Assembly (NCBI GenBank): GCA_017621225.1
Contig: JAGATN010000007.1
Span: forward strand, 1 to 45,429
Direction: 5' to 3'
Length of the DNA: 45,429 nucleotides
DNA from: Muribaculaceae bacterium
GTDB lineage: Bacteria; Bacteroidota; Bacteroidia; Bacteroidales; Muribaculaceae
The position numbers and the translations under genes are program-made. Below the pieces are notes generated by a model. It did not search any database and was not told where the DNA came from. It saw only the letters and a list, made by a program, of their open reading frames with translations. Of the stretch, positions 30,746-45,077 are shown one piece after another (position 1 is the stretch's first letter; each line of letters opens with the position of its first letter).

Positions 30746-31546
30746 TTATCGATAATCAGTTTCAAGAAAATCGAGTGTCTTATCAACCTTTATTCCTCCT
30801 TGAACCTTGATGCTTACACCCAATGAAGCACTTAATCCGGCTTCGGGATTATCTTCAAATTTCCGAAGTGTTTTCAGCATGGAAATACGGTCGGTCTGTT
30901 CATAATGGTCAGCTCCGAGGTTTGGTGTAATCGGTTTTGAAGTCGCATTAATTCCGGTCGCCATGAAATGATGTTGCCCGGATTCTTCCCGTGCTTCAAG
31001 AATCAAGCCCGGCAGGCCGGATAATTTCCACGGACCATCTTGTATAGGAATGTCAGTAGCGAACCATACTGTCCAATGTCTGCCGTGGTAGTCGGTACTT
31101 GCCACATGACATTCATATCCGAGAATATTTTTTGTCGAATCACCAATTTCCCATGTCTGAGCTTCGTAAGGCTCCGTATATCGAAACATTGAAACAATAT
31201 TCCCATCAAATACCTCCATATTGCCGACTTTGTTTTTGAATATATACATAGGAACAGTGCGTTTTAGGACATTTTTCATATTGCCGGAAGTGAATGCAGA
31301 CATTTTCATTTGATTATATGCGTTCTTCCCCTCCGGCGTTGATTCCAAGGAATCAAGATATTCAGTGATAGGATTGTAGAATTTAGAATATGAGGAATTT
31401 GCGAGCAAAATCATCTGGTGATTCTGTTCGCTTCCTCGACGGTGGAAATGCTTATAGTTATAGCTAACTTCAATGTCGGATGTCTGCTGTGCAATCGCAG
31501 CTACGACAACAAAGCATAATGAAATTATTATTGATACAAGTCTCAT
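30746..31546 (-). CDS. GLPGLI family protein A4, last gene of locus A
   Basis: A 266-residue exported protein (signal peptide MRLVSIIISLCFVVVAAIAQ). It carries the family-defining motif GPWKLSGLPGLILEA with GLPGLI at 177-182, preceded by ILGYECHVASTDYHGRHW and WFATDIPIQDGP, which are nearly identical in its paralogues here. These proteins (TIGR01200, Pfam Porph_ging) are Bacteroidota secreted proteins of unknown function. The end LDFLETDYR matches the C-terminal pattern of the paralogue at 32584. A MITE separates it from the GLPGLI gene upstream, only 22 bp before its ATG, and no promoter box is seen in between. Expression may depend on read-through across the MITE hairpin. Confidence 0.88.
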   Translation of the reverse strand: MRLVSIIISLCFVVVAAIAQQTSDIEVSYNYKHFHRRGSEQNHQMILLANSSYSKFYNPITEYLDSLESTPEGKNAYNQMKMSAFTSGNMKNVLKRTVPMYIFKNKVGNMEVFDGNIVSMFRYTEPYEAQTWEIGDSTKNILGYECHVASTDYHGRHWTVWFATDIPIQDGPWKLSGLPGLILEAREESGQHHFMATGINATSKPITPNLGADHYEQTDRISMLKTLRKFEDNPEAGLSASLGVSIKVQGGIKVDKTLDFLETDYR

Positions 31547-31568
31547 AACGTTACATTATTTCATCTCA

Positions 31569-31730
31569 GAAACTGTTTAAATTTATTTGTCGAAGGAATT
31601 GAGAGGATTTGTCAAGTAGATTTTTGATATTTATGAAGAAGTTATGGGGTGCCATAATGACCGAATAAATATCAACAAGATGCTGACAAAGACCTCAATG
31701 ACAAGACAAAATCAATTTTTAAACAGTTTC
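31569..31730. mobile_element. MITE copy 1, nearly palindromic, inside the locus A operon
   Basis: A 162-bp element without coding capacity. Terminal inverted repeats read GAAACTGTTTAAA inward from both ends, and imperfect inverted symmetry continues to a perfect centre (TTATGG/CCATAA at 31642-31647/31652-31657) exactly at the midpoint. A second copy at 39708-39868 is about 95% identical by eye. Flanks are TCA and TTA, close to a 3-bp duplication of TNA type. No transposase gene is in the window; it would need one in trans. It lies between two GLPGLI genes and overlaps the 3' end of the one at 31712. Confidence 0.88.
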
Positions 31731-32578
31731 TTATAGTCAGGCTCGATGCTATGTTTCAGCCCGTCATATTTCGGAGTCTCTATTTTGTTGCCGTTGTCGT
31801 CGGTGGAGTAGATTTTCACATTTTGACCTTGCGCATTTAGAATGCTTTCTTCGTTGTTGGCAAAATATTCGGCATTTCTCAGGGCTTCCTTGCGGTCGAC
31901 CTTCGAGTAGTCGCCTTGCATATACATTGGAGACATGATGCGGTCGGTACGTTCAAGGCCGGTTGCCACGAACGAGAATCCGCCGTTGGCTTCGGCTTTC
32001 ATAATCAGGCCGGGCAGACCATGAAGTTTCCACGGACCGAACGGCATCGGCAGTTCGGGAGCAAACCACGCTTTCCAGTGACGGCCATGATAATCGCCTT
32101 CTGCCATGACGCATTCATAACCGAGAACGGTTGCGGTGGAATCTTCCACAATTGTCCATTGCATTTCGGAAAGCGGCTCTGTATAATAGCCCAAATCCTC
32201 CCCAAATAGATTGTAATGCGTCAGGCACTCTTTTGCGAGATCTGTGAATACATAACTGTTGGTTGGTTTGGTCGGGCCTTTTCTCATGTCAAACGATACT
32301 GAGCCGTCAGGCTCGACAGTCATACACGCCTTTTTGATTATCTCCATGTATTTCGCCTTACCCTCAGGAGCCGATTTCATTGAATCGACCCAGAGGCTGA
32401 GGTCGTTGAAATACTTTGCCTCGGTTGGCGAAGCCAAAAGCGACATTTTGCCTGTGTCTATCTTACCTCGTTTAGTTGGAAATGATGAGTCGTAACTGAC
32501 AATGATGTCGGCCTTGTTCTGCGCCATTGCAGCCATCGCCACAAGGCACGTAAATAAGAATGTAAATGTCTGTTTCAT
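31712..32578 (-). CDS. GLPGLI family protein A3, C-terminus extended by a MITE
   Basis: A 288-residue exported protein (signal peptide MKQTFTFLFTCLVAMAAMAQ). The family motif is GPWKLHGLPGLIMKAE (GLPGLI at 187-192), preceded by LGYECVMAEGDYHGRHWKAW and APELPMPFGP. It has a longer C-terminal region than the neighbours (STDDNGNKIETPKYDG). Paralogues end in TDYK or TDYR, but this one ends EPDYKKLFKN. The last five codons and the stop (31712-31729) lie inside the terminal repeat of the MITE, so the insertion replaced the original stop. It follows the GLPGLI gene at 32584 after 5 bp, in the same operon. Secreted, function unknown. Confidence 0.9.
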   Translation of the reverse strand: MKQTFTFLFTCLVAMAAMAQNKADIIVSYDSSFPTKRGKIDTGKMSLLASPTEAKYFNDLSLWVDSMKSAPEGKAKYMEIIKKACMTVEPDGSVSFDMRKGPTKPTNSYVFTDLAKECLTHYNLFGEDLGYYTEPLSEMQWTIVEDSTATVLGYECVMAEGDYHGRHWKAWFAPELPMPFGPWKLHGLPGLIMKAEANGGFSFVATGLERTDRIMSPMYMQGDYSKVDRKEALRNAEYFANNEESILNAQGQNVKIYSTDDNGNKIETPKYDGLKHSIEPDYKKLFKN

Positions 32579-32583
32579 ATCGG

Positions 32584-33378
32584 TTATTTATAATCAGTTT
32601 CAATTAAATCAAAGCCCTCCGGGAGTTGGATTTCTTGCATTGAGGTGCCAAATTCCGCATTCATCTGCGCTCCGGAATTGTTATAGAATGTCCACTGCAA
32701 TTTCAGCATATCTTTACGTTTAACCCGATTTGAAAGTTCGTGTCCATACATTTTCTCCGGAAAAGGTTTATTGGATGTTTCTATTCCAGTTGCCTCAAAG
32801 CTGTATTTTCCATTATCGGCATCAGCTCTAAGAATTAAACCCGGCAATCCGCACAATTTCCACGGCCCATCATGAATCGGTATTTCGGGTGTAAACCACA
32901 CTTTCCAGTGCCGACCGTGATAGTCTGTCTCCGCCATAATGCATTCATAGCCGAGGATGTTTTGTGTTGAATCGATGGTTTCCCAGTTTTGTTCGTCCAT
33001 ATTTTCTTCGTAGTGTCCGAGTTCGCCTGCGGCCTCTCCATAATACGTTGTTTTTCTTTTGCCAAAATCCTTAACAACATATGTTCGTGAACCTGGAAGC
33101 AAAGACGGTCTTTCTCCAGCCGCATTTGCCGCTTCAACCATAGTGTTGAACCGGACAGTACCTTGTGGAGTAGAGAGCATTGAATCGACAACGAGAGTCA
33201 TCGGATTATAAAAATGTGAAAACTCGCCATTTGCCAACAATAGCATTTTCTCTTTCTTATTGGTACCTGTCCAGTTTTTATACCGTTCGGTGTACTCCAC
33301 CTTGATTTGCGCATTTTCTTGCGCGACACCTGTGCTTATTGTAAAACACAGAAGAATGAATGTAATTAGTCTGTTCAT
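32584..33378 (-). CDS. GLPGLI family protein A2
   Basis: A 264-residue exported protein (signal peptide MNRLITFILLCFTISTGVAQ). The core motif is GPWKLCGLPGLILRADADNG with GLPGLI at 177-182; upstream blocks ILGYECIMAETDYHGRHWKV and WFTPEIPIHD are shared with the other copies. The protein ends FDLIETDYK. Its ATG overlaps the stop of the outer-membrane protein gene (ATGA, 33375-33378), so translation is coupled to it. This suggests that barrel and GLPGLI protein are made together and may form an envelope complex. No enzymatic motif is recognised. Confidence 0.9.
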   Translation of the reverse strand: MNRLITFILLCFTISTGVAQENAQIKVEYTERYKNWTGTNKKEKMLLLANGEFSHFYNPMTLVVDSMLSTPQGTVRFNTMVEAANAAGERPSLLPGSRTYVVKDFGKRKTTYYGEAAGELGHYEENMDEQNWETIDSTQNILGYECIMAETDYHGRHWKVWFTPEIPIHDGPWKLCGLPGLILRADADNGKYSFEATGIETSNKPFPEKMYGHELSNRVKRKDMLKLQWTFYNNSGAQMNAEFGTSMQEIQLPEGFDLIETDYK

Positions 33379-36038
33379 TTTCTTAGGGTTATCGAGAATA
33401 GCAGCTGACGGCCACGGAGCTGCCGCAAGCTCTCGAAAGATGACAACTGCGAATAGGTTATGTAATTGTAGCTTCGCTTGTTGAGCATATTGGTGAGCGA
33501 CGCGGCAAACTCTATCTTCTTGTTGAGCTGATAAGTCAGTTTGGCATCGAGCATCACAATGCTCTTATAATTATGCTCAGTCAGTTCGTTGCGGTAATGC
33601 TCGCCGCTGACCGTACATTGCCACTTGTGATGGGGAATGAACGTGAGGCCCAGTTCGTTTTCCATCGTCGAAAGCCACGACTCGCTCAGTCCGTTCATTG
33701 TCAGGCGACTGTCGGAATAGTCCATACGATAATCGAAGCTTAGCCATCGGCACAGGCTACCATTCAGCTTACCGCCTACGCTCCAGCCGGTGCTGACAGA
33801 GTTGACGGCCCGCGACTGCGAGAGCAATTGCGATTCGTTTCGGCTAAACGAACCGTTCACGTTGCAGCTTCCGCGCATGAAGTCGAGGGTCTTGCCGATG
33901 TTGCCCATCGCCATGAGCATTTTGCTATCGTTTTTCGCATCGGCATAACTGAAAACCACGTAATCGCCATAGAGCTGCTGCGCCATCGTATAGGGCACGT
34001 GAGTCCATGACTGCATCATCATGCCGTTGGCAAACAAACCATAGCGTGTATGCTTGTAGCTGATTCTTGCCGATACATTCTGCGATGACGAGTTATAGAA
34101 ATTATCCACGCCCGATTTCAGCGTGCGGTAATTTGTCATTATCAGTCCGGGATGGATAAGGTTGAGATTCATCGGCGAGCGTCCGAGACCGCCACGCAAT
34201 GTGCCCGAAAAATGGTTGTTGGGCTTCCAGTTGAAACTCAGCGAAGGAGCGAAATACAGTTCGTCGTGATTGGCGATAGCCTTGTTGAAATTATAATGCG
34301 CATAGCTTACCGGCATATTCAGCACGATGTTCATCCGGCGCACCCAGTATTCAAACTTTGGCGTAGCGTAAACGGTAAGATAGTTCGTATTGACCACGTT
34401 TTCAGTAAGTCCGGGCAGCTCCACCGGAAAGTCGGGCAATTGCGAATCCATAGAGCGCAAATAGCCCTTAATTCCACCCTCAAGGCTCAGCGTCACCCCC
34501 TTTATGTTGAAAGCATACGCCGCGCTCTCATGAGTATAGAAAGCGTGATCGGAAATCCGTTGCCTGAACAATTCTCCATTCTCAACTCTAAATTCTCTAT
34601 TCTCAATTCTAAATTCTAAATTCTGAGGAAGTGATTCCCATTCGTTCGTGCTTTGAAACGTAACAAGATGCTGCCCCTTGAAGCGCTTTATCATCTTGAA
34701 CTTGTTGCTGACATAATAATCGGGCAACTTCGCCGACTGTTCGTTGGGCATCGATCCGGTTGTGGCGAGGCTCACATCATCCCAATCGATGTTGGTTTGG
34801 AGAGTATTGTTGATGAACGTCGTCCTTTGGTTCAGCTCATAGATGAACTTGCCGCTTAACGAGTGGTTATGCTCCGTGCCGCTTCTGTTTTCGGTAATTA
34901 TGCGGTTCCCCTCGTCGAGAAAATATGTCGTTATGTTTGAGGCATCGGCCGTGACACGGTTGAATGAATAGTCTATGTTTGCCTTGAACTCGCCGTTTTT
35001 AAGTTTCCACAAACTATTGGTCGACACGAGAAGCGAACGGTTGAACATCGTACGACTATCGCTAAGCGACGGCACTCCGGGCAGACTCACGCCCACATAT
35101 CGGCTCAGCCCCGTCTGCCTACGGTCGGCAAAGAAATCCGTGCTCGACGACGAAAGGTTCTCGCCTGTATTATTGGTGCGCAAAGTAGTTATATTCTGAA
35201 ACGAAGGCATTACGGCCATTGCAAACAACTCCCCATCCCAAACCATGGAGTTGCGGCTTCCAGCCGCAACCCTAACATTATCATTTCCTACTGATATGGG
35301 CGGCAGGATGCCGCCACCCCATAATAATCCTCCACCGGCATCGCCATGAAAAGTCCACGTGGCTTTCGCCTTGTTTTTCAGCTTAAGATTTATGGCAGCC
35401 TTATCGGAGAATGATATCCCCGACAACACCTGCATAGGCTGATGATTCTCCATCACCTCGACCGCACCCACATCGTCATGGCTTATGCCGTTGGTGGCTA
35501 TGCCGTATTTTCCGCCGAGAAGATCGGAGCCTTCGATGTAGAACTTATTGATGTCCTCACCCTGGTATTGTATCTTGCCGTTCTTTGCCACGTCGATACC
35601 GGGCATGCGTTTCAGCACGTCGCCAATCGATCGGTCTTGCTTCTGAGCGAAGCTGCCCACATTGTATGTTATGGTGTCGCCCTGCTCTCGTATGCGGTCG
35701 GCCTTGACTGTCACCTCTTTGAGCAATGTGGTTCCCGGCTCCATATAGACGGTTAGAGGAAACGTTACGCTGTCGAGCGGAATAGACTGCTTGGCGAAAC
35801 TCATCATAGTCACTTCCAGACGGCAACCGGTTACCGACGGCATCGTCATGGCGAATCCACCGTCGACCTTCGACGAAGCGAATTTCTTTATCCGACCGTC
35901 AGCTCCTTTGACAATGACCGACGCCCCGGCTAAAGGCTCATCATTCTCCTTGTCAATGATAGTTCCTGACACGTTGACCTGCGCCACGACACTCGCCGCA
36001 ACCGCCACGCAAAGCAGATATATGACAAATCGGTTCAT
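33375..36038 (-). CDS. TonB-receptor-like outer membrane beta-barrel protein, locus A
   Basis: An 887-residue outer-membrane protein with signal peptide MNRFVIYLLCVAVAASVVAQ, a carboxypeptidase-regulatory-like domain (about 21-105: VNVSGTIIDKENDEPLAGAS), a plug-like domain (about 110-230: TLLKEVTVKADRI, SIGDVLKRMPGIDV, FYIEGSDLLGGKYGIATNGI) and a long barrel ending in LFSITLRK. It resembles the TonB-dependent-receptor-like family usually found with GLPGLI proteins; no SusD gene is present. ATGA overlaps join it to GLPGLI genes on both sides. Compared with the locus B paralogue it has about 23 extra residues (two DNA palindromes at 35250-35315) and a low-complexity insert near residues 472-489. 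Ligand unknown. Confidence 0.9.
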   Translation of the reverse strand: MNRFVIYLLCVAVAASVVAQVNVSGTIIDKENDEPLAGASVIVKGADGRIKKFASSKVDGGFAMTMPSVTGCRLEVTMMSFAKQSIPLDSVTFPLTVYMEPGTTLLKEVTVKADRIREQGDTITYNVGSFAQKQDRSIGDVLKRMPGIDVAKNGKIQYQGEDINKFYIEGSDLLGGKYGIATNGISHDDVGAVEVMENHQPMQVLSGISFSDKAAINLKLKNKAKATWTFHGDAGGGLLWGGGILPPISVGNDNVRVAAGSRNSMVWDGELFAMAVMPSFQNITTLRTNNTGENLSSSSTDFFADRRQTGLSRYVGVSLPGVPSLSDSRTMFNRSLLVSTNSLWKLKNGEFKANIDYSFNRVTADASNITTYFLDEGNRIITENRSGTEHNHSLSGKFIYELNQRTTFINNTLQTNIDWDDVSLATTGSMPNEQSAKLPDYYVSNKFKMIKRFKGQHLVTFQSTNEWESLPQNLEFRIENREFRVENGELFRQRISDHAFYTHESAAYAFNIKGVTLSLEGGIKGYLRSMDSQLPDFPVELPGLTENVVNTNYLTVYATPKFEYWVRRMNIVLNMPVSYAHYNFNKAIANHDELYFAPSLSFNWKPNNHFSGTLRGGLGRSPMNLNLIHPGLIMTNYRTLKSGVDNFYNSSSQNVSARISYKHTRYGLFANGMMMQSWTHVPYTMAQQLYGDYVVFSYADAKNDSKMLMAMGNIGKTLDFMRGSCNVNGSFSRNESQLLSQSRAVNSVSTGWSVGGKLNGSLCRWLSFDYRMDYSDSRLTMNGLSESWLSTMENELGLTFIPHHKWQCTVSGEHYRNELTEHNYKSIVMLDAKLTYQLNKKIEFAASLTNMLNKRSYNYITYSQLSSFESLRQLRGRQLLFSITLRK
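34570..34624. repeat. Short degenerate tandem repeat inside the locus A barrel gene
   Basis: About 55 bp of repeated TTCTAAA/TTCTCAA-type units (minus strand GAATTTAGA, GAATTGAGA, GAATAGAGA) are in frame and encode LEFRIENREFRVENGEL, near residues 472-489. The low-complexity DNA and its peptide are unlike the surrounding barrel sequence, and the locus B paralogue has a shorter segment here. Confidence 0.7.
35250..35315. repeat. Pair of palindromes inserted in frame in the locus A barrel gene
   Basis: Two perfect hairpins lie 28 bp apart: arms GTTGCGGCT/AGCCGCAAC (35250-35258/35262-35270) and GGCGGCA/TGCCGCC (35299-35305/35309-35315), both with 3-nt loops. They encode WGGGILPPISVGN and NVRVAAGSRNS. 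Aligned with the locus B paralogue, the region from GGG to TGENLS is 23 residues longer and matches again right after it, consistent with a 69-bp REP-like insertion in frame. Confidence 0.7.
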
Positions 36039-36898
36039 AAGTCGTGTGGATAGTTGGTCTCCTCTTTGTCTCGATGTTGTTCTTTCTTCTCAGCGGCTGT
36101 GGGTTGAGAACCCCTGCCGAACATTGACGCCATTTTTGCACCGAAGTTTGAATTGGCATATTTCCACCAACTATTGAAAAATTTGTCGCGAGTGACATTG
36201 TTGACACCGCGCTTCTCACGGTAACAGAAGAACCCGACTTCAGCCAATCCGTTTTGTTTCAACCCATTGGCAACAAACCGATACTCGCGGTGATTGTCCT
36301 CAGCTTCGAGTATCAAACCAGGCAAACCGCATAGCTTCCACGGGCCGTCCTGAATCGGTATCTCCGGAGTAAACCACGCCGTCCACCGGCGACCACGATA
36401 ATCAGTAGTGGCTTTGAAGCATTGGTAGCCTATTATCTCTTTCGACTCATCTGAAATATCCCATTCAGGCTTTTCCCAGTCTTCATCATAGCGCCAGTCT
36501 TCCATCTCGAAATAGGCTGTCTCCGTAACCTTACCCTCGGGATAATTCTTGTAAATGAAACTGCCGTAGCGTCCGCTCCGCTCGAGCGAGGTCCGATCGT
36601 GCTCTCTTGGATCCTTCTCAAACGAAGCCGCCTCCATCTGGAAATATAATTTAGGATTATTGTGCATAAGAGAATCGCGGTAAAAACGCGGTACCGAACA
36701 GTAGAGCGACATACCATTGCCAATGCGGAGCATAGTTTCTTCCTTGTAGTAATTTGTCGCGCGTTTGGTGGTGTCGGTCACCTCAGTGCGTGTATAATGT
36801 ACTTCAAGTATGGCAGGCTCGGTATCTCTCACCCAGTTGTCGGCATTTGCAGCCATTACCACGGTAGCTAAAATTATATATGTCAGCAGTCTTTTCAT
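36035..36898 (-). CDS. GLPGLI family protein A1, first envelope gene of locus A
   Basis: An exported GLPGLI protein of 287 residues from the ATG at 36898 (signal peptide MKRLLTYIILATVVMAANA). The frame is open 7 codons further to 36919, but the predicted transcript start at about 36912 and the signal-peptide position favour 36898. The motif GPWKLCGLPGLILEAEDNH has GLPGLI at about 191-196; IGYQCFKATTDYRGRRWTAW and FTPEIPIQD precede it. The end is divergent and charged, with EKKEQHRDKEE. Its stop overlaps the barrel gene start (ATGA, 36035-36038). It lies directly after the predicted operator and Crp-type regulator gene. Function unknown, secreted. Confidence 0.88.
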   Translation of the reverse strand: MKRLLTYIILATVVMAANADNWVRDTEPAILEVHYTRTEVTDTTKRATNYYKEETMLRIGNGMSLYCSVPRFYRDSLMHNNPKLYFQMEAASFEKDPREHDRTSLERSGRYGSFIYKNYPEGKVTETAYFEMEDWRYDEDWEKPEWDISDESKEIIGYQCFKATTDYRGRRWTAWFTPEIPIQDGPWKLCGLPGLILEAEDNHREYRFVANGLKQNGLAEVGFFCYREKRGVNNVTRDKFFNSWWKYANSNFGAKMASMFGRGSQPTAAEKKEQHRDKEETNYPHDL

Positions 36899-36916
36899 AA
36901 TAACCGTTCTGATTTG

Positions 36917-36960
36917 CAAAATTCGTCATAATCACTCAATCGCAAGTGAACATATGTTCA
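36917..36960 (-). promoter_or_regulatory. Operator and promoter of locus A
   Basis: A perfect 14-bp palindrome TGAACATATGTTCA (36947-36960) overlaps the stop codon of the regulator gene. Downstream on the minus strand are TTG, an 18-bp gap and a near-consensus -7 box GAATTTTG (36924-36917, one mismatch to TAnnTTTG). The palindrome centre (36953.5) is 36.5 bp from the last base of the -7 box, which would place it at about -41.5 of the transcript start, the class II activator position. Locus B has the same core and the same spacing. Binding by the adjacent Crp/Fnr-type protein is inference. Confidence 0.65.
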
Positions 36961-37569
36961 TTTCATCTTCCCTTCAAGCGATTTTTTTATACGCAATAAG
37001 TGCTGTGGCGAAATTTGTAGATATGACGCCAGTTCCTTGACCTTAATGGCAAAAGCCATGTCGGGGTACAACTCTACGAATCGGCTGTAACGCTCGGCCG
37101 GCGAAAGCACGTATAGCTCAAGCAGACGGGTATAGCACATACGAAACAGTGCATCGGAAGCCTTGTAAAGAAAATCGGGCACCAACTCGGCCAGCTTCTC
37201 CAACGCATAACCGATCGGAAGTTGTAGCACCTCGGTGCGTACCGATGCTACAAGCGACACCATCGAGGGAAGTCGCCGTATTCCATTGTTGAAGTCAGTG
37301 ACAAATTCATCGACCATGGCAAAACCGACTATCGCTTCATCACCATCCGATTTCAGACACATATATCGGCAATATCCCGACTTTACAAGAGATATGTGCC
37401 TCTCCACATCGCCCTGACGAAGCAGATATTCATCCCTCTCATAAACTACGTGCTTCCCTTCTTTTTCGCACAATTCAGTCAATACCGAGAGATTGACTTG
37501 TTGCTTATATGAATTAAAAATTTCGGACAATTTATGATAAAGCGGCCATTGTCGGCTCCTAACGGCCAT
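36958..37569 (-). CDS. Crp/Fnr-family transcriptional regulator, locus A
   Basis: A 203-residue protein with an N-terminal cyclic-nucleotide-binding-like domain (about 25-130: YERDEYLLRQGDVERHISLV, MVDEFVTDFNNG) and a short C-terminal helix-turn-helix at about 177-197 (VKELASYLQISPQHLLRIKK). No Cys cluster of FNR type is seen. The conserved nucleotide-pocket Arg/Ser signature of true CRP is not evident, so the effector is unknown. Its stop codon lies within the palindromic operator of the downstream operon. A promoter (TTG-N19-TAAATTTG) lies about 230 bp upstream, leaving a long leader that contains a 121-bp inverted-repeat element. Confidence 0.88.
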   Translation of the reverse strand: MAVRSRQWPLYHKLSEIFNSYKQQVNLSVLTELCEKEGKHVVYERDEYLLRQGDVERHISLVKSGYCRYMCLKSDGDEAIVGFAMVDEFVTDFNNGIRRLPSMVSLVASVRTEVLQLPIGYALEKLAELVPDFLYKASDALFRMCYTRLLELYVLSPAERYSRFVELYPDMAFAIKVKELASYLQISPQHLLRIKKSLEGKMK

Positions 37570-37611
37570 ATTTCATTACAACAAAAAGCGCGAACCAACT
37601 ATGCCACGTCT

Positions 37612-37732
37612 TAGTTTGAAGGTCGTAGGAAAAACCATTTGTGCAGATGTAACAATAGCAGCCCACGCTATGCGTGAGAACCACTATGCTATCTCTCGCA
37701 CATATTTGTGAATTTCCTACGTTCTCAAACTA
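37612..37732. repeat. 121-bp imperfect inverted-repeat element in the regulator leader
   Basis: Ends read TAGTTTGA (37612-37619) and TCAAACTA (37725-37732); pairing resumes after a 3-4 nt interruption with CGTAGGAA/TTCCTACG, and further short palindromes (CACGCTATGCGTG) lie inside. It has no coding capacity and no second copy was seen in the window. It resembles a MITE remnant or a structured leader; it lies between the predicted promoter and start codon of the locus A regulator. Confidence 0.6.
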
Positions 37733-37797
37733 CAAGATAAGCATAACGCTTCGTATTTTTCAAAAATGTCGTGGAACGGTCGAAACCTTTCCAACGG

Positions 37798-37827
37798 CAA
37801 ATTTAATTATAATATCCAATTGTGCAA
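37798..37827 (-). promoter_or_regulatory. Promoter of the locus A regulator gene
   Basis: On the minus strand TTG (37827-37825), a 19-bp spacer and TAAATTTG (37805-37798) match the Bacteroidota promoter. The start codon is about 230 bp downstream, so the 5' leader would include the 121-bp inverted-repeat element. Confidence 0.6.
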
Positions 37828-37857
37828 TGAAAATCAGATGACAAAATGGAAGAATGT

Positions 37858-38793
37858 TTATCGAATGAACGATTTCCTCCGGCATTTGCCAATAAACATC
37901 GCGCCCCAACCCAATGCGAGATAAACTGCGGCATAAATCAGAAACCACGGTTCCTTTATGTCAAAGAAAAGCCACGTACCGGCAAGAAACGCAACCGACG
38001 ACACCAAAGGAAGATTCCACATCCGCCGCACATCCTTACCACAGGCTGCCCCCAATATTATTGAATATACCGGGTTGACGGCCAGAAACAAAATCATGCA
38101 CAACGCCATTCCGCTATCCTCCGACGCAAGTCGAGCCACAGCGAATGGCAATATGAACATGACGGCAATCGTGGCACACAACCAATAAACCACTGACCGC
38201 GTGCCGCCCGACTTTGCCACATTCAATGCTTTCCCGTCAAGATGGTCACGAATACAAGTTTCGTCGTTGTCGCCTATATGGTTTGACGTGGCGTTTAATT
38301 CCATCTCGATGCAATTCCACGTTTCGCCCATGCAAAAGTAGCTCTCCGTCATCGAAGCCGTTACACGCCTGAATCCCACCGATTCATAGCAACGTATGGC
38401 CGACGGATTATTTTCAAAAACGCCAAGCGATACTTTCGTGGCTCCAAGCGTTTCAAAAGCGTATTTTACGGCCATTCTTACAAGGGCTTTGCCAAGTCCG
38501 CTACCTCGCTTTGAATCATCGACAATGACAAACCCCAACCGCTTTTCCATCCAATCGTCGGCCGGGGTGCGCAACGTGACATATCCCAAAACCTCATTGC
38601 CATCCACCATTGTCAGGGCGTGTGAACGCAGTCCGTCAATATATTGCTCGTGGTATGAGTTCATGGCTTCGGGCGTTACGGGATAACGCTCATATCTGTC
38701 GGCACACCACTGGCGCATAAGGTATTCGCTTTTAAGCCACGATGTTATCACCGCAGCATCTGACGATCTGTATGGTCGGATTGAAATACTCAT
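37858..38793 (-). CDS. GNAT acetyltransferase fused to a four-helix membrane domain
   Basis: A 311-residue protein. Residues 1-165 form a GNAT domain with the acetyl-CoA loop RGSGLGKALV (96-105), YVTLRTPADDWM and LGVFENNPSAIRCYESVGF; members of this kind often acetylate ribosomal protein N-termini or small molecules. A linker (166-198) leads to four hydrophobic segments (about 202-220, 229-249, 260-277, 284-302) containing NPVYSIILGAACGKDVRRMW and a basic end GKCRRKSFIR. The membrane part resembles small hypothetical membrane proteins usually encoded alone. It is the second gene after a TetR-type regulator (16-bp gap). Substrate unknown; the fusion seems continuous, with no frameshift seen. 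Confidence 0.82.
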   Translation of the reverse strand: MSISIRPYRSSDAAVITSWLKSEYLMRQWCADRYERYPVTPEAMNSYHEQYIDGLRSHALTMVDGNEVLGYVTLRTPADDWMEKRLGFVIVDDSKRGSGLGKALVRMAVKYAFETLGATKVSLGVFENNPSAIRCYESVGFRRVTASMTESYFCMGETWNCIEMELNATSNHIGDNDETCIRDHLDGKALNVAKSGGTRSVVYWLCATIAVMFILPFAVARLASEDSGMALCMILFLAVNPVYSIILGAACGKDVRRMWNLPLVSSVAFLAGTWLFFDIKEPWFLIYAAVYLALGWGAMFIGKCRRKSFIR

Positions 38794-39919: not shown

Positions 39920-40933
39920 CTAATTTTCAAGTAAGATTTTAATGAAATCTTTTCCGTTCCACCCTATGAGTGCAGCGTCATCGATAGCTGCCACTTTGTA
40001 AAGCGGATACGGCACGTTGAAATAGCGGTCTACTATTTTGCCGTTCCAATCTATCTTGTAAATAGTCGGAGCCGTGGTTGCTGCATCGGCATACATACAA
40101 TTCCAATGCAGAGCATAGATATAATCGGGGGTATAGGTTATGTCGACCGTGTGCAAACGATTAAGGATATCGAAATCCGCCTCCTCAAGAGTTTTCGGAT
40201 CGAAGGTGTCCTCACCTATTCTTACTGTTGCTGTTGTGTTGCCGGCCAAGTCGAATATTTCGACGATCGGGTGCAACTTGTAGGCAAAAGCGAGGCGTTT
40301 GTATTTGTCGGAGTAAACCATTTCGCCGGCATTAGGCATCCATGACCGCAATTCCGGCGATATGTTGATTTGACGTATGGTGTCGATTTTCGCGGTTGTC
40401 AAGTCTGCTTTCATCGCATATTGGCGTCCACCCTTCGGTTCCCTGCCGATAAAAACATAATCATCCGATTCGGTCATAAAAACGTCCTGCACATATTGGG
40501 AGAGAGAAAATGGCACGGTGCTGTTCTCGTCCATCAGATATTGATTTGTCTTGACAAAAGCAGTATCGTTTTTAACGGTATAAATCTCACAATCATCTTG
40601 ACCAATCACTCTGACGGTGCCATTGTCTGCTATGAATGGATAAGGCATAAACGATACAAAGTAGCCATCATCACGCTTACCCATATCGTGTACCGCTTTT
40701 AGTGTGTGACTTTCACAATCAACGACTGCACGACGAAGTATCCTCTGCCCATATCCGTCCTCACCCTCAAAGACAAACAGCAATGTATCACCCGACACCT
40801 TCATATCGGTCATGTGTCTTATCGCCGGCAATGTATCTCCCACTATATCAAATTTTGCAGAAGGGATTGCAGTCTGAGCGTTGGCACATCCTGATATGAA
40901 TAGGATAAATGCCATTATTCGTAACGTATTCAT
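39920..40933 (-). CDS. Six-bladed beta-propeller lipoprotein (BF3164-like), locus B
   Basis: A 337-residue exported protein with a lipobox at the end of the signal peptide (FILFISGC, Cys16), so probably a lipoprotein. The body shows repeated four-stranded blades (MKVSGDTLLFVFEGEDGYG, RLAFAYKLHPIVEIFDLAGN, IYALHWNCMYADAATTAPTI) typical of the BF3164-like/TolB-like 6-bladed propeller family of Bacteroidota. Its ATG overlaps the GLPGLI gene stop (ATGA, 40930-40933), so it is coupled to locus B. It probably serves as a surface-binding partner; the ligand is unknown. Confidence 0.83.
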   Translation of the reverse strand: MNTLRIMAFILFISGCANAQTAIPSAKFDIVGDTLPAIRHMTDMKVSGDTLLFVFEGEDGYGQRILRRAVVDCESHTLKAVHDMGKRDDGYFVSFMPYPFIADNGTVRVIGQDDCEIYTVKNDTAFVKTNQYLMDENSTVPFSLSQYVQDVFMTESDDYVFIGREPKGGRQYAMKADLTTAKIDTIRQINISPELRSWMPNAGEMVYSDKYKRLAFAYKLHPIVEIFDLAGNTTATVRIGEDTFDPKTLEEADFDILNRLHTVDITYTPDYIYALHWNCMYADAATTAPTIYKIDWNGKIVDRYFNVPYPLYKVAAIDDAALIGWNGKDFIKILLEN

Positions 40934-41784
40934 CGTATTTCGAGTGGCTTGTATGGTATGGACATTTTTGATGCTTCGCTATTGTCCATTTCTTTACCGT
41001 TTTTACCAACTATATGCACCCTGCCGCTATCTCCACCCATCTCGGCTATCAGGAAAGCGACAGGCGATTTGAAATAGCGGACGAGTGTTTTCTCTACATC
41101 AGAGACGGAACATCGCTTATCGTTGCCGTCTTGATATGTATATTCCATGATTGGAGCGTTTGACTGCTGAAATCCAATGGCTTCCCAAACAAATTGACGT
41201 TCTCCATCTTCTATTTTAAGAATAAGGCCGGGCAAACCTCCGAATTTATATGGTCCGAATGGTAACGGCAACTCGGGCGCATACCATGCTGTATAATTGC
41301 GACCGGCAAATTCTGTGGTTGCTTTACGGCATTCATACCCCATAATTGTGTCGGTATCATTGCTGCTGAAATTCCACTCTAAAGTCGGAACGGAATCTGA
41401 ATATACCAGAAATGTATGTGTAGACAAGCGATATTTTGAATCCGCATTTGCGCCGCGTACAGGACGGACAATCTCCAAGGGCCACGGATTGCCCGAAACG
41501 TTTGAATAAGAGTCGGCTCCGCGCCGAATCTGCTCGGTTGCCAACGAATCAAAGTGGTTTATTATGTCGCTGTAGTCTTTGACACGATGTTTGCCTATCT
41601 GCACAATTCTTACATCGTCATAGTAATCCTTTATGCCGGGATGGAATTTATATTTTAACGAGTAAGCGACCGTGTATCGGGCCGTATCGACGGGAGTAGC
41701 CTTGTCGATGATGCGAGAGCATGTTTCTTGAGAGAATCCCGTTATCGAGATGAAAATACAAAGAAGTGAAAGTATCTGTTTCAT
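40930..41784 (-). CDS. GLPGLI family protein, locus B
   Basis: A 284-residue exported protein (signal peptide MKQILSLLCIFISITGFSQ). It has the motif GPYKFGGLPGLILKIEDGE with GLPGLI at 183-188, preceded by TIMGYECRKATTEFAGRNYT and WYAPELPLPFGP. It is more diverged than the four locus A copies (GPYKFG in place of GPWKLC, an N-terminal Cys at 22 after the signal). It lies 13 bp after the barrel gene and overlaps the propeller gene by 4 bp. Same inferred envelope role, function unknown. Confidence 0.88.
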   Translation of the reverse strand: MKQILSLLCIFISITGFSQETCSRIIDKATPVDTARYTVAYSLKYKFHPGIKDYYDDVRIVQIGKHRVKDYSDIINHFDSLATEQIRRGADSYSNVSGNPWPLEIVRPVRGANADSKYRLSTHTFLVYSDSVPTLEWNFSSNDTDTIMGYECRKATTEFAGRNYTAWYAPELPLPFGPYKFGGLPGLILKIEDGERQFVWEAIGFQQSNAPIMEYTYQDGNDKRCSVSDVEKTLVRYFKSPVAFLIAEMGGDSGRVHIVGKNGKEMDNSEASKMSIPYKPLEIR

Positions 41785-41797
41785 TTTATATCGGTTT

Positions 41798-44398
41798 TTA
41801 TAATATTCTGAATCTGATTTTTAGCAGCACGCTACGGGGGCGGATGTTGTATATGGCCTTCGACTCGGTAAGAGCCGAAAGGTTGGAGTAAACGTACGTT
41901 TTGCGGTTAAGCAGGTTGTCGCATAACAGCGTGAAACTGAAACGCTTGATGGAATATTTTGCCTCGGCGTTGAGAAGGAGGAACGAGCGGTCGCCGTCAT
42001 TGAAATTGTTGTAATAATGATAGAGCGATGTTGTCAGCGACACCCCACCCGGAATGGTGAAATCGAATGAAGCTTTATTGGTGACGGTGCGCAGCCACGG
42101 AAACCGGTCATATCCTTCTTGCTGTGTGGCCGACTGGGAGTAATTGCCCTGATATGACACAGCTAACCATTTGAAAGGCATCAGACTTATGTCGGCGTTG
42201 ACTCCGAGGCTGTTGCCTGTATACCGCAACACTTCGTCCTGAACGAGCAGCGGGCTGTCGTAATAAGAATATGTCACGGAGGCTCCAATTTTGAGTCGTC
42301 GCCAATCGAAGCCCTGACTTGCATGGACTTTGGCCGAAAGCATATCGCTGTTCTCCGACGTGCGACGGCTTATGGTATGCTGCACTATGCCGTCGTAATA
42401 AGAGCCGTAAAGCACATCGGGCAACTGCCTGTTCCACATCACTTCCGCGCCGGCAAAGCTCATTGAAAGGATATTCTTGAAATCGTAGCCTAACGAGTAA
42501 TTCTGATTCATTCCCTCATACAATCCTGCCACATCGTATGCCGATAGCTGACGATACGAGGTCAATATCCGGCCCGAATACAGAGTTTCGATCGAGGGTG
42601 TCATATAATTCAGCGATGCCGCCGCTTTCAGATTGTGGCTGCTGTTCACTTTATAGGTGAAGTTGAACGAGGGCTCCACACGACATCGATTTTTGTCCGT
42701 AACATTGCCGTCAAGTCTGTTTTTCAGCCGGAACAGCCTGTATTTCATAGGCACGTAGAGCGACGCGTGGATCCTTCGAACATTGAACATCATTTCGGCA
42801 CCCAACCCCGCATCGAAATGGTCGAGCGCAAGGTCGTTGCACATTGCATCGAGACGGCTTTCGAGCGAATTATGGTGATAGTTCACAATAGCCGACGGAT
42901 GGAGCGTGAAATTGCCGACTTTTAAGGCCGACAACAATCCCGCGCTGTTTTCGGTGGATATGTTGCGGTAATCCACATGCTGATGCAGCAGGTCGCCCGA
43001 TATCACGTCGGGGAAAAGATTGGGCGACACCGAAAGGCTGTGTGGACGCTTTTCGAAGTTGACAAGTGAAGAAATATCAAAACCACGATCGACAGAATTT
43101 CGGTGCGTCATGTGAAATTTATTCAGCAGGCGGTAGGTGTCAGTCGTTCCTCGCTGACCGATGTCATCGCTCCCGGCGAGAATGCGGCTGTCGGCATCCG
43201 TCGTGCTCCAGTCGAATTTCAACTGCTCCTTGAGGTAGTTTTCATCGCCGTTGTTCATATACGTAAGGTCGCCGTAAGCTTTCTGCATACGCGCCGTGCC
43301 TCCCATGTTCTCATCAACTATGTTCTGACCGCCGTCGGGCAAAAAGTTCGTTGTCGACGAACTGCTGCGGCGCGTGTCGCGGTCGCCGAGATAAGCGGCG
43401 TTTATGCCTAACTCGCCCGATTTGCCTACCCGATACACATTATTGAACGTGGCGTTGTGCGAGCGGTTGAAATAATAGAAGCGTTTGTCGATGCCAGGAG
43501 CCGACGGCATGGCGATTGTCGAGATATTGCTTGTGCGCGACCAGTCGTTGTCGAAAGAATAAAGTTCCTGCGACAGATCCTCGCCGGTATTGTTCCCCTT
43601 GTAGGTGGCGAGAAACTGGCTGTTGCGCCGAAAATACGTGGCAATCGCCGAATTGTTCCACAACCCTTTATCGCCATAGCCACCCCCGAGCGTGGCTATG
43701 AGATTGAACACACCTTTAACGCCCTCTTTGAGCCTAAGGTTTATGGAAGCCCGCTCCTCCGGGCGCAGACCTTTTAGCGCCTTTATGTCCTGATGGTTCT
43801 CCAACACCTGCACGGTAGCGATATTATTGGGGTCGATGTTGTTGGTTGCTATGCCGTAATGTCCTTTCATAAGGTCAAGCCCCTCAATATACAAGTTTTT
43901 AATCGGCTTGCCCTGATATGATACTTGCCCGGCATCCGATACCGTAATTCCCGGCATCTTTTTCAACACGTCCGCAATCGATTGGTCTGTATTGGAGAGA
44001 AATGATCCGACATTATAGTTGATTGTGTCGCCTTTTGAGTAGACTTTCTTCGACTTTACGACAACCTCTTTCAGCTCAACGGTACGCTTATTCACTATTA
44101 TGTCGTAATTGCCGCTACGATTCGGCACCGTAATCAGTGCCGGGGCTATTTCCATACTTGTGGCTTTCAATATGAGGCTGTCGGAGTCACTGTCCACCGA
44201 CATTTGAAACGACCCGTTTTCATCGGTAAATACTGATGCCAATATCGTTTTAGGCGCATTAGATGGCGATGCTATGACGCTTACAAAGTCCATTCGATTG
44301 CCATCTGCACTCTTTACTACACCCGAAACAGACGTTCGGGCTATTGCCGAAGCTACGAGCCAAACGGATATGAGGAATGTGATAAGTCGTTGTTGCAT
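41798..44398 (-). CDS. TonB-receptor-like outer membrane beta-barrel protein, locus B
   Basis: An 866-residue outer-membrane protein starting at the ATG 44398 (MQQRLITFLISVWLVASAIA signal peptide). The frame is open to a TTG at 44458, but that lies inside the operator, upstream of the predicted transcript start. Domains: carboxypeptidase-regulatory-like (TSVSGVVKSADGNRMDFVSV), plug-like (ELKEVVVKSKKVYSKGDTI, SIADVLKKMPGITVSDAG, NLYIEGLDLMKGHYGIATNN, ATVQVLENHQDIKALKGL) and a barrel ending LKIRFRIL. It is a collinear paralogue of the locus A barrel without the two inserted repeats. First gene of locus B behind the Crp-type regulator. Confidence 0.9.
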   Translation of the reverse strand: MQQRLITFLISVWLVASAIARTSVSGVVKSADGNRMDFVSVIASPSNAPKTILASVFTDENGSFQMSVDSDSDSLILKATSMEIAPALITVPNRSGNYDIIVNKRTVELKEVVVKSKKVYSKGDTINYNVGSFLSNTDQSIADVLKKMPGITVSDAGQVSYQGKPIKNLYIEGLDLMKGHYGIATNNIDPNNIATVQVLENHQDIKALKGLRPEERASINLRLKEGVKGVFNLIATLGGGYGDKGLWNNSAIATYFRRNSQFLATYKGNNTGEDLSQELYSFDNDWSRTSNISTIAMPSAPGIDKRFYYFNRSHNATFNNVYRVGKSGELGINAAYLGDRDTRRSSSSTTNFLPDGGQNIVDENMGGTARMQKAYGDLTYMNNGDENYLKEQLKFDWSTTDADSRILAGSDDIGQRGTTDTYRLLNKFHMTHRNSVDRGFDISSLVNFEKRPHSLSVSPNLFPDVISGDLLHQHVDYRNISTENSAGLLSALKVGNFTLHPSAIVNYHHNSLESRLDAMCNDLALDHFDAGLGAEMMFNVRRIHASLYVPMKYRLFRLKNRLDGNVTDKNRCRVEPSFNFTYKVNSSHNLKAAASLNYMTPSIETLYSGRILTSYRQLSAYDVAGLYEGMNQNYSLGYDFKNILSMSFAGAEVMWNRQLPDVLYGSYYDGIVQHTISRRTSENSDMLSAKVHASQGFDWRRLKIGASVTYSYYDSPLLVQDEVLRYTGNSLGVNADISLMPFKWLAVSYQGNYSQSATQQEGYDRFPWLRTVTNKASFDFTIPGGVSLTTSLYHYYNNFNDGDRSFLLLNAEAKYSIKRFSFTLLCDNLLNRKTYVYSNLSALTESKAIYNIRPRSVLLKIRFRIL

Positions 44399-44421: not shown

Positions 44422-44470
44422 CAAATTTAGGCAGAAACAACGACTTAATTCTCAACAAATGTTGAGAATT
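44422..44470 (-). promoter_or_regulatory. Operator and promoter of locus B
   Basis: A perfect inverted repeat with 10-bp arms (AATTCTCAAC at 44447-44456, GTTGAGAATT at 44461-44470) and a 4-bp centre lies upstream of an exact -7 box TAAATTTG (44429-44422 on the minus strand). The core AACAAATGTT matches the locus A core AACATATGTT at 9 of 10 positions. Centre to last -7 base is 36.5 bp, identical to locus A. No good -33 TTG is present at the usual spacing, fitting activator dependence. Confidence 0.7.
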
Positions 44471-44483
44471 GAAATTATGTCAA

Positions 44484-45077
44484 TTATTTTTTACGCAACC
44501 GGCTTAGATGGGTCGGCGTGATGTTCAGCAACGAGGCGATATCTTTAAGAGAGAATAGCGTGAACAACGCCGGATCACGACTTATCAGCTCGTCATAGCG
44601 TTGTTGCGGAGGCTTTGAATATAAATCGACGAGCCTGTCATACACGGTGTTAAACAATTCGCGCGTAGTGTTTTCAACAACTTCCTTGACTCTCGCGTCC
44701 GACTGCATCAACTCAGATACTTCCGACGAAGTGACGCAATGTATCTCGCACGGCACGGTGGCTATTATCGAGCAACGAGACTTCTGACGATAAAGTGAGC
44801 CGGGAAAATCGCATACGAAATGTCCGGCAAATTCAAGCCCTGTTATATGGGGTGTACCGTCGGAAGAAAAACAAACATATTTCAATGCGCCCGATTTAAC
44901 GTAACCTATGTATCGGCCAACCGTTCCGACCGTAACAAATTCATCACCCCGGTCATAGCGGAGCAGCTCTCCCCGACTGATACATAAGTTTCGCCAAAAG
45001 TCGGTGTCAATGTTGTCGATATATGAATTGAATTGCGACATAACGTAATACAAATTAGCCATTTTTCTCATCATCAT
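44484..45077 (-). CDS. Crp/Fnr-family transcriptional regulator, locus B
   Basis: A 197-residue paralogue of the locus A regulator. N-terminal cNMP-binding-like domain (RYDRGDEFVTVG, GRYIGYVKSGALKYVCFSSD, FAGHFVCDFPGSLYRQK) and a short C-terminal helix-turn-helix (176-196, SLKDIASLLNITPTHLSRLR). Recognition helices of both regulators share the P-x-H-L-x-R pattern, consistent with similar DNA cores. The true start may be Met6 (45062), because MANLYYVMSQFNSY aligns with the locus A protein, or Met13 (45041). Its gene ends 14 bp before the operator of locus B. Effector unknown. Confidence 0.87.
   Translation of the reverse strand: MMMRKMANLYYVMSQFNSYIDNIDTDFWRNLCISRGELLRYDRGDEFVTVGTVGRYIGYVKSGALKYVCFSSDGTPHITGLEFAGHFVCDFPGSLYRQKSRCSIIATVPCEIHCVTSSEVSELMQSDARVKEVVENTTRELFNTVYDRLVDLYSKPPQQRYDELISRDPALFTLFSLKDIASLLNITPTHLSRLRKK

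Follow-up and report, generated by a model that had tools for sequence, protein, structure and literature searches.

In E. coli, the class II operators of CRP and FNR are centred near -41.5, and the consensus half sites of the two proteins are TGTGA and TTGAT, respectively. Several members of the CRP/FNR family use class II activation, according to the available part of PMC12531629. The σABfr promoter carries TAnnTTTG at -7 and TTTG near -33, and the main promoter motif of Bacteroides thetaiotaomicron has elements centred at the same two positions (PMC7366714, in the text at hand). In this species, the regulator BT4338 (Crp/Cur) has been proposed to answer an unknown metabolite, with the predicted motif wwwTATGTTnTAnAACATAwww (accessible portion of PMC3878776), and for fusA2 a figure legend of PMC6989115 names both a putative site and a -7 box, as far as the excerpt of that source goes. 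Porphyromonas gingivalis has HcpR, PgRsp and CrpPg, which like the proteins reported here are CRP/FNR proteins in Bacteroidales, but which serve as regulators of stress, redox or global scope; CrpPg was not observed to bind cAMP, and the available sections of PMC12040651 describe no family-wide local operator set for the three. Our searches of openly licensed PMC papers showed no description of Muribaculaceae Crp/Fnr operators or regulons. Class II control and Crp/Fnr proteins are already known; what we put forward as new is a family-wide promoter plan and a putative recognition code.

The window (the whole stretch of 45,429 nucleotides analysed here, contig C22 of a Muribaculaceae genome of 2.53 Mb in 47 contigs) holds two loci of this kind, both read on the minus strand. 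Locus A runs from regulator A through operator A and -7 box A into a GLPGLI/barrel-like operon:

36958..37569, minus strand: regulator A, 203 aa, Crp/Fnr type (PF00027, 34.4 bits against a cut-off of 27.5), recognition helix ISPQHLLRIKK
36991..37008, minus strand: codons for P-Q-H-L-L-R, the equivalents of CRP 180-185 (MAFFT alignment; coordinates derived by hand from the 203-aa ORF)
36947..36960, no strand: operator A, TGAACATATGTTCA, a palindrome seen in the sequence, centre 36953.5
36917..36924, minus strand: -7 box A, GAATTTTG, one mismatch to TAnnTTTG
36035..36898, minus strand: GLPGLI gene, first behind operator A (TIGR01200, 177.8 bits; PF09697)
33375..36038, minus strand: outer-membrane barrel-like protein, 887 aa, with a CarboxypepD_reg-like domain (PF13715 at its cut-off); called a barrel from its size and this domain
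30746..33378, minus strand: three more GLPGLI genes of operon A (32584-33378, 31712-32578 and 30746-31546; TIGR01200)

Locus B has the order regulator B, operator B, -7 box B and then the barrel/plug-like, GLPGLI and 337-aa genes:

44484..45077, minus strand: regulator B, 197 aa, Crp/Fnr type (PF00027, 28.9 bits against a cut-off of 27.5), recognition helix ITPTHLSRLRK
44499..44516, minus strand: codons for P-T-H-L-S-R, the equivalents of CRP 180-185 (MAFFT alignment; coordinates derived by hand from the 197-aa ORF)
44447..44470, no strand: operator B, AATTCTCAACAAATGTTGAGAATT, a 24-bp palindrome, centre 44458.5
44422..44429, minus strand: -7 box B, TAAATTTG, a full TAnnTTTG match with zero mismatches
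41798..44398, minus strand: barrel/TonB-plug-like protein, 866 aa, first behind operator B (weak PF07715 match, 20.7 bits, under the cut-off of 23.9)
40930..41784, minus strand: GLPGLI gene of operon B (TIGR01200, 167 bits)
39920..40933, minus strand: 337-aa protein with no Pfam match, overlapping the end of the GLPGLI gene and probably part of operon B

A sequence-only reading of the window had already picked out the two palindromes, placing each behind a Crp/Fnr-type regulator, ahead of a GLPGLI/barrel operon and 36.5 bp from the last base of a -7 box. This description stands: the distance from the operator centre is 36.5 bp both to the last base of GAATTTTG (box read 36924-36917) and to that of TAAATTTG (box read 44429-44422), and Pfam and TIGR01200 matches place a cNMP-domain regulator before, and a GLPGLI/barrel-like operon after, each palindrome. 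Operator A overlaps the stop codon of regulator A and can be widened to 36944-36963 (10-nt arms, 90% complementary), and GAACAWWTGTTC recurs at identical spacing behind the A orthologues L028, L029, L030 and L031. The arms of operator B are 11 nt long and 100% complementary, with 2 nt between them. The first ATG of each operon follows closely, 18 nt after -7 box A (GLPGLI gene) and 23 nt after -7 box B (866-aa barrel/plug-like gene).

No Pfam HTH model matched regulator A or B. Their C-terminal end aligns gap-free with the recognition helices of CRP and FNR (MAFFT), and a profile of B and its relatives (leaving out L379, which has an in-frame stop, and L318, L378 and L381) matches CRP-type chains in the PDB. 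The best PDB sequence match, 3dn7, a cyclic nucleotide binding regulatory protein, extends through the recognition helix (TPEYLSEIRK versus TPTHLSRLRK in regulator B). Judged by Pfam and PDB sequence match, the regulators are of the Crp/Fnr type. The cAMP pocket of CRP is formed by E72, R82, S83, R123, T127 and S128. In the 60 homologues aligned, out of 155 among the matches listed, E72 is replaced by D in 58, R82 by S or A in 59 and T127 by a gap in all 60, and the commonest states at S83, R123 and S128 are other residues; given this loss of the pocket, the inducing signal is probably not cAMP.

The two loci resemble the class II systems of E. coli CRP and FNR in that the operator is a palindrome, keeps one fixed distance and overlaps the upstream promoter element, and in a dependence on the activator that we infer here from the poor promoter. 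They differ in that the promoter is of the Bacteroidota type (TAnnTTTG), in that the operators are neither TGTGA nor TTGAT, and, with respect to CRP, in residue 181, which is Glu in 0/96 loci with a site and in 1/155 homologues (among the matches listed). BT4338 is likewise a Crp-family regulator in Bacteroidota, but operators A and B differ from its 22-bp motif TATGTTnTAnAACATA in core and in half-site direction (compared by eye), and the available accounts of BT4338 give a global sugar regulon and possible autoregulation, of which there is no sign here.

The reading also held that loci A and B share the core AACAWATGTT, and took frequent occurrence of this core at random positions as a point against it. 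The core does have 5 strand matches in the window versus 0.42 expected (two of them at a single place inside a GLPGLI gene), but genome-wide there are 26 strand matches, at 14 places, versus 15 for a reversed control; with enrichment in the genome unclear, the 10-mer alone is weak evidence and we dropped it. The composite of operator and box fares better. The pattern NNNACAWWTGTNNN-N22-KAnnTTTG, in which NNNACAWWTGTNNN stands for ACAWWTGT with any three outer bases, matches exactly loci A and B in the window and nothing in 200 mononucleotide shuffles, so that the composite is not due to chance. Across the whole genome, ACAWWTGT-N10..40-KAnnTTTG (31 spacings) has 16 matches versus 4 in the reversed control, and at N25 stand four of them: A, B, one on contig C25 and one on contig C8. 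The C25 site precedes a 699-aa protein that has no Pfam match of its own and belongs to the linked cluster of the 866-aa barrel-like protein of the window. The C8 site, TGTGACAAATGTCACA at the standard distance from TATATTTG (C8:86444-86484, L384), is followed by a 183-aa secreted-looking protein with repeats and lies ~370 bp behind another Crp/Fnr gene of the group, a distance across which its pairing with this presumed regulator is assumed.

A scan of relatives for such composites, as the reading had proposed, finds a single preferred spacing for each of three operator types. Homologues of A occur in 155/297 and those of B in 157/297 genomes of the family. The B-type pattern CAACAWWTGTTG-N8..38-TAnnTTTG has 103 matches in 61 of the 297 genomes; 84 of them, in 50 genomes, are at N23, 19 are spread over the 30 remaining spacings, and the reversed control gives 4. 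All 21 matches of the GGACAWWTGTCC type over 31 spacings are at N23 (control 1), and 12 of 27 A-type matches are at N24, which is the equivalent spacing (control 7), in the same 297 genomes; four of these 12 are near-identical copies (G167, G175), and one, in G042, was counted by its site without regard to a regulator. Of the 12 A-type sites with the correct spacing, 11 have the off-consensus box GAnnTTTG. All these spacing counts take in related sequences. For the analyses of B-type sites below, merging of repeats reduced the 84 N23 matches to 81 distinct sites, from 59 of 60 site regions, the window's own being replaced by C34.

The same distance emerges when no operator sequence is presupposed. 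Behind 154 regulator genes, the homologues among the matches listed (155 distinct, one dropped for short downstream DNA), we scored inverted-repeat pairs at every distance from any TAnnTTTG. Of the 118 boxes found behind these listed homologues, 65 have at least 6/8 pairs at 36.5 bp, as against at most 4 boxes at any of 54 other offsets, so that the only peak is at 36.5 bp. When one box mismatch is allowed, 112 of the 154 homologues (again among the matches listed) have a site at 29.5-43.5 bp, 89 of them at 36.5; within 35.5-37.5 bp behind the gene, 96 of these 154 have a site and 58 no clear one. Operator sequence varies by subfamily while the distance to the box is constant. Beyond the family, homologues of B were found in 63/198 genomes of the order, three of which belong to the family itself; most are distant, and among 27 such loci (L271-L297) 4 have a palindrome of at least 6/8 pairs behind the gene, 3 of them at 36.5-37.5 bp. 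With so few palindromes behind these homologues, the promoter plan looks largely confined to Muribaculaceae.

Both promoters had been said to depart from consensus, and they do: box A has one mismatch, and at none of the 81 B-type sites is there a TTG 17-21 nt before the box, versus 11 expected from shuffled spacers, a test that is partly trivial since the operator arm fills that place and fixes some bases. From the -7 and -33 element positions in B. thetaiotaomicron, the operator centre would sit near -40 to -41.5; the class II position predicted in the reading gains good comparative support from the one sharp spacing across relatives. The fixed distance to the box, the operator arm in the place of the -33 element and GAnnTTTG at 11/12 A-type sites together point to class II activation. 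We consider it likely (a probability of about 0.8) that the regulators activate, in class II fashion, the operon that follows them as well as some genes further away, with operator flanks read by residues 180-182. Each would be a dimeric Crp/Fnr-type activator that binds the palindrome directly behind its own gene. From a centre fixed 36.5 bp ahead of the last base of the -7 box (~-40 to -41.5), it would contact σABfr RNA polymerase in the class II manner, at a promoter devoid of a -33 element, and switch on a surface operon of GLPGLI and barrel-like proteins. The equivalents of CRP residues 180, 181 and 182 would choose the flanking bases, such that paralogues in one cell read different operators: A would read GAACAWWTGTTC, B (CT)CAACAWWTGTTGA(GA), and the C8 paralogue probably TGTGACAAATGTCACA. 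B may also act at a distance on the barrel-like gene on contig C25. The regulators appear not to control themselves; autoregulation was tried as a candidate and rejected, as the best operator match in the ~350 bp upstream of 96 regulators was no better than in shuffled DNA.

The palindromes might instead be repressor sites, where the regulator, bound just at the upstream end of the promoter, keeps RNA polymerase out until a signal releases it. The operator does occupy the place of a -33 element, and BT4338 both activates and represses, according to the excerpt of PMC6989115. A repressor, however, does not need a spacing fixed to one bp, such as is kept in 84/103, 21/21 and 12/27 matches, and the missing -33 TTG at B-type sites, together with GAnnTTTG at A-type sites, would leave these promoters weak when unaided, which makes repression improbable in our view. 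It is far-fetched that the palindromes serve the regulator genes as transcription terminators or RNA hairpins, even though a run of at least 4 T follows 36/81 B-type sites and 26/81 lie within 130 bp behind a regulator gene: T runs are equally common at sites away from regulators (25/55) and adjacent to them (11/26), the spacing from palindrome to box is fixed, and locus A has no T run directly behind its palindrome.

The motif P-x-H-L-x-R, noted earlier as shared by A and B, is present in both and aligns with CRP R180-R185 (MAFFT with E. coli CRP and FNR; CRP numbering without the first Met). In the 96 loci that have a site at 35.5-37.5 bp (among the matches listed), the recognition triple 180-182 tracks the operator. 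The core ACAWWTGT is common to most of the group, and operators A and B, alike in their core, differ in the sixth base from the centre (G versus C), a difference kept in their respective relatives; A (P-Q-H) pairs with GAAC and B (P-T-H) with CAAC. PTH (31 loci) goes with C6, PQH (6 loci) with G6 in 10/12 half sites, PVY (11 loci) with A6 and C2, RRQ (14 loci) with G5 and mostly with G6 and G7, QTH (6 loci) with T8, and PVH (3 loci) with A6 in 4/6 half sites. PTY (9 loci) has mixed C2/C3, PNH (9 loci) asymmetric sites, PIH (2 loci) is split, PTT (2 loci) has a different and doubtful palindrome, and HQH, RRH and YRQ are found at one locus each. L108 (P-I-H) misfits the code unless its site belongs to a neighbour. 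The combination of Q181 and G6 recurs within the B family, in both half sites at L268 and in one half site at L210 and L227. In G175, a site was picked only for GAAC (GAACAWWTGTTC); the regulator ~660 bp ahead of it belongs to the B family (37% to B, 29% to A) and has P-Q-H, their pairing being assumed across this distance.

How many of these associations are independent was assessed on a regulator tree built leaving out the recognition helix. At residue 181 the tree requires at least 2 changes for Q and at least 3 for V. Y182 and C2 agree in 8 of 9 independent pairs, with 0 against (p = 0.0078). Residue 181 provides only 3-5 independent pairs, for which no sign test reaches 0.05: T181 goes with C6 in 3.8/5 pairs on average when both halves are counted and in 3.2/5 for any half, Q or R with G6 in 3/4, and V or I with A6 in 2.4/3. 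R180 goes with G7 in 2/2 independent pairs and Q182 with G5 in 2/3. Among the independent pairs for all traits tested, none contradicts the rule, and all associations except Y182/C2 fall short of 0.05.

That the two loci have the same operator core was the point of the sequence-only reading; by an alternative explanation, A and B share one whole operator, and a single regulator, or each of the two, acts on both loci. The core AACAWATGTT and P-x-H-L-x-R are indeed common to A and B, but the sixth base differs, stays with each regulator type and tracks residue 181 (Q with G6, T with C6), also where Q181 recurs with G6 inside the B family after at least two changes to Q on the tree. Cross-binding between A and B is thus predicted to be poor and cross-regulation seems quite unlikely; with few independent changes at residue 181 to go by, mutual insulation of A and B is probable. 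Shared ancestry could by itself produce the covariation, operator and helix being inherited as one block with no causal reading, and it has in its favour that regulator and operator often lie side by side and are passed on together and that independent changes at residue 181 are few. The independent pairs that never go against the rule, significantly so for residue 182, and the 55/81 B-type sites that keep the B sequence away from any detected regulator (48 with at least 700 nt upstream) speak against it, and we doubt that ancestry is the whole explanation.

For the family as a whole, the odds lean slightly towards small Crp/Fnr activators having radiated in Muribaculaceae, with one rigid class II plan in common and insulated from each other by a recognition code. 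In such a code, residue 180 would specify positions 7-8 (P/T7, R/G7, Q/T8), residue 181 position 6 (T/C, Q/G, V/A) and residue 182 positions 2-3 and 5 (H/C3, Y/C2, Q/G5). If this is true, a single cell would be equipped with several orthogonal switches, each for its own set of surface barrel and GLPGLI genes, and the paralogues would form a natural series in which three residues and a few bases covary at constant promoter geometry, making both Crp/Fnr specificity and class II activation of the Bacteroidota polymerase directly testable. Such pairs would also be candidate orthogonal activator-promoter pairs for gut Bacteroidales. Regulons for GLPGLI and barrel-like surface proteins of unknown use would become readable from sequence alone, in a gut family with few regulatory data.

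One cluster, which includes the barrel-like protein of the window, accounts for 40 of the 79 ORFs behind distinct B-type sites (single linkage, BLASTP E 1e-4; ORFs cut by locus ends are taken in). By a crude rule, 71/79 have a signal-like N-terminus, and most of these ORFs thus appear to start like secreted or outer-membrane proteins; an ATG lies 15-50 nt after the box at 60/81 sites. A Pfam scan of ten chosen target proteins gave GLPGLI, plug-like, DUF3943, DUF6624 and CotH matches, as well as aspartyl-protease-like, T9SS-tail and short-chain dehydrogenase matches, and no match at all for two barrel-cluster proteins among the ten. Besides the 26 sites close behind a regulator gene, 55 of the 81 are not within 130 bp behind a detected one (at least 700 nt of upstream DNA examined for 48 of these), which suggests that the regulon reaches past the neighbouring operon.

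Sites and regulators of the B type also tend to occur in the same genomes (39 with both, 11 with a site only, 25 with a regulator only and 222 with neither; Fisher test, p = 5e-22 over 297 genomes, kinship ignored). The 64 genomes with a B-type regulator (~40% identity or more) come from a list copied by hand, from which G167 was left off as its 43-46% matches are partial, and for the 25 regulator-only genomes, exact-pattern sites were counted and looser ones excluded. Among the 11 site-only genomes, G012 has a TPTH regulator from another branch. G007, which is 99% complete, has no homologue of A or B at E 0.001; at C12:15336-15378 (L119) it has a B-type site in front of a 696-aa barrel-cluster gene.

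Some further observations concern the arrangement of these loci. In G093 (C46:4830-4903), a single GGACAWWTGTCC (GGACA-type) palindrome has TAnnTTTG boxes on both sides at the same spacing, which suggests one operator for two divergent promoters; bidirectional B-type palindromes with exact boxes on both sides were sought in the loci examined and none was found. In locus B, a perfect 12-nt inverted repeat, TAAGTCGTTGTT / AACAACGACTTA (44383-44394 and 44436-44447, 41 nt apart), spans -7 box B and the start of the barrel-like gene, and could be relevant to folding or be due to chance. An Rfam search of 36800-37900 gave no match. Directly upstream of regulator A, at 37560-37760, lies a dispersed intergenic repeat of ~200 bp with 10 matches in the genome counting itself, the others 71-91% identical and some partial; they include C8:87703-87856, upstream of the C8 Crp/Fnr gene, and C25:6723-6886, upstream of the distant B-type site. 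The end of the window contig (45340-45429), judged by eye, resembles a 5S rRNA gene in the reverse direction. Five of the seven GLPGLI genes of the genome lie inside the window (30746-36898 and 40930-41784).
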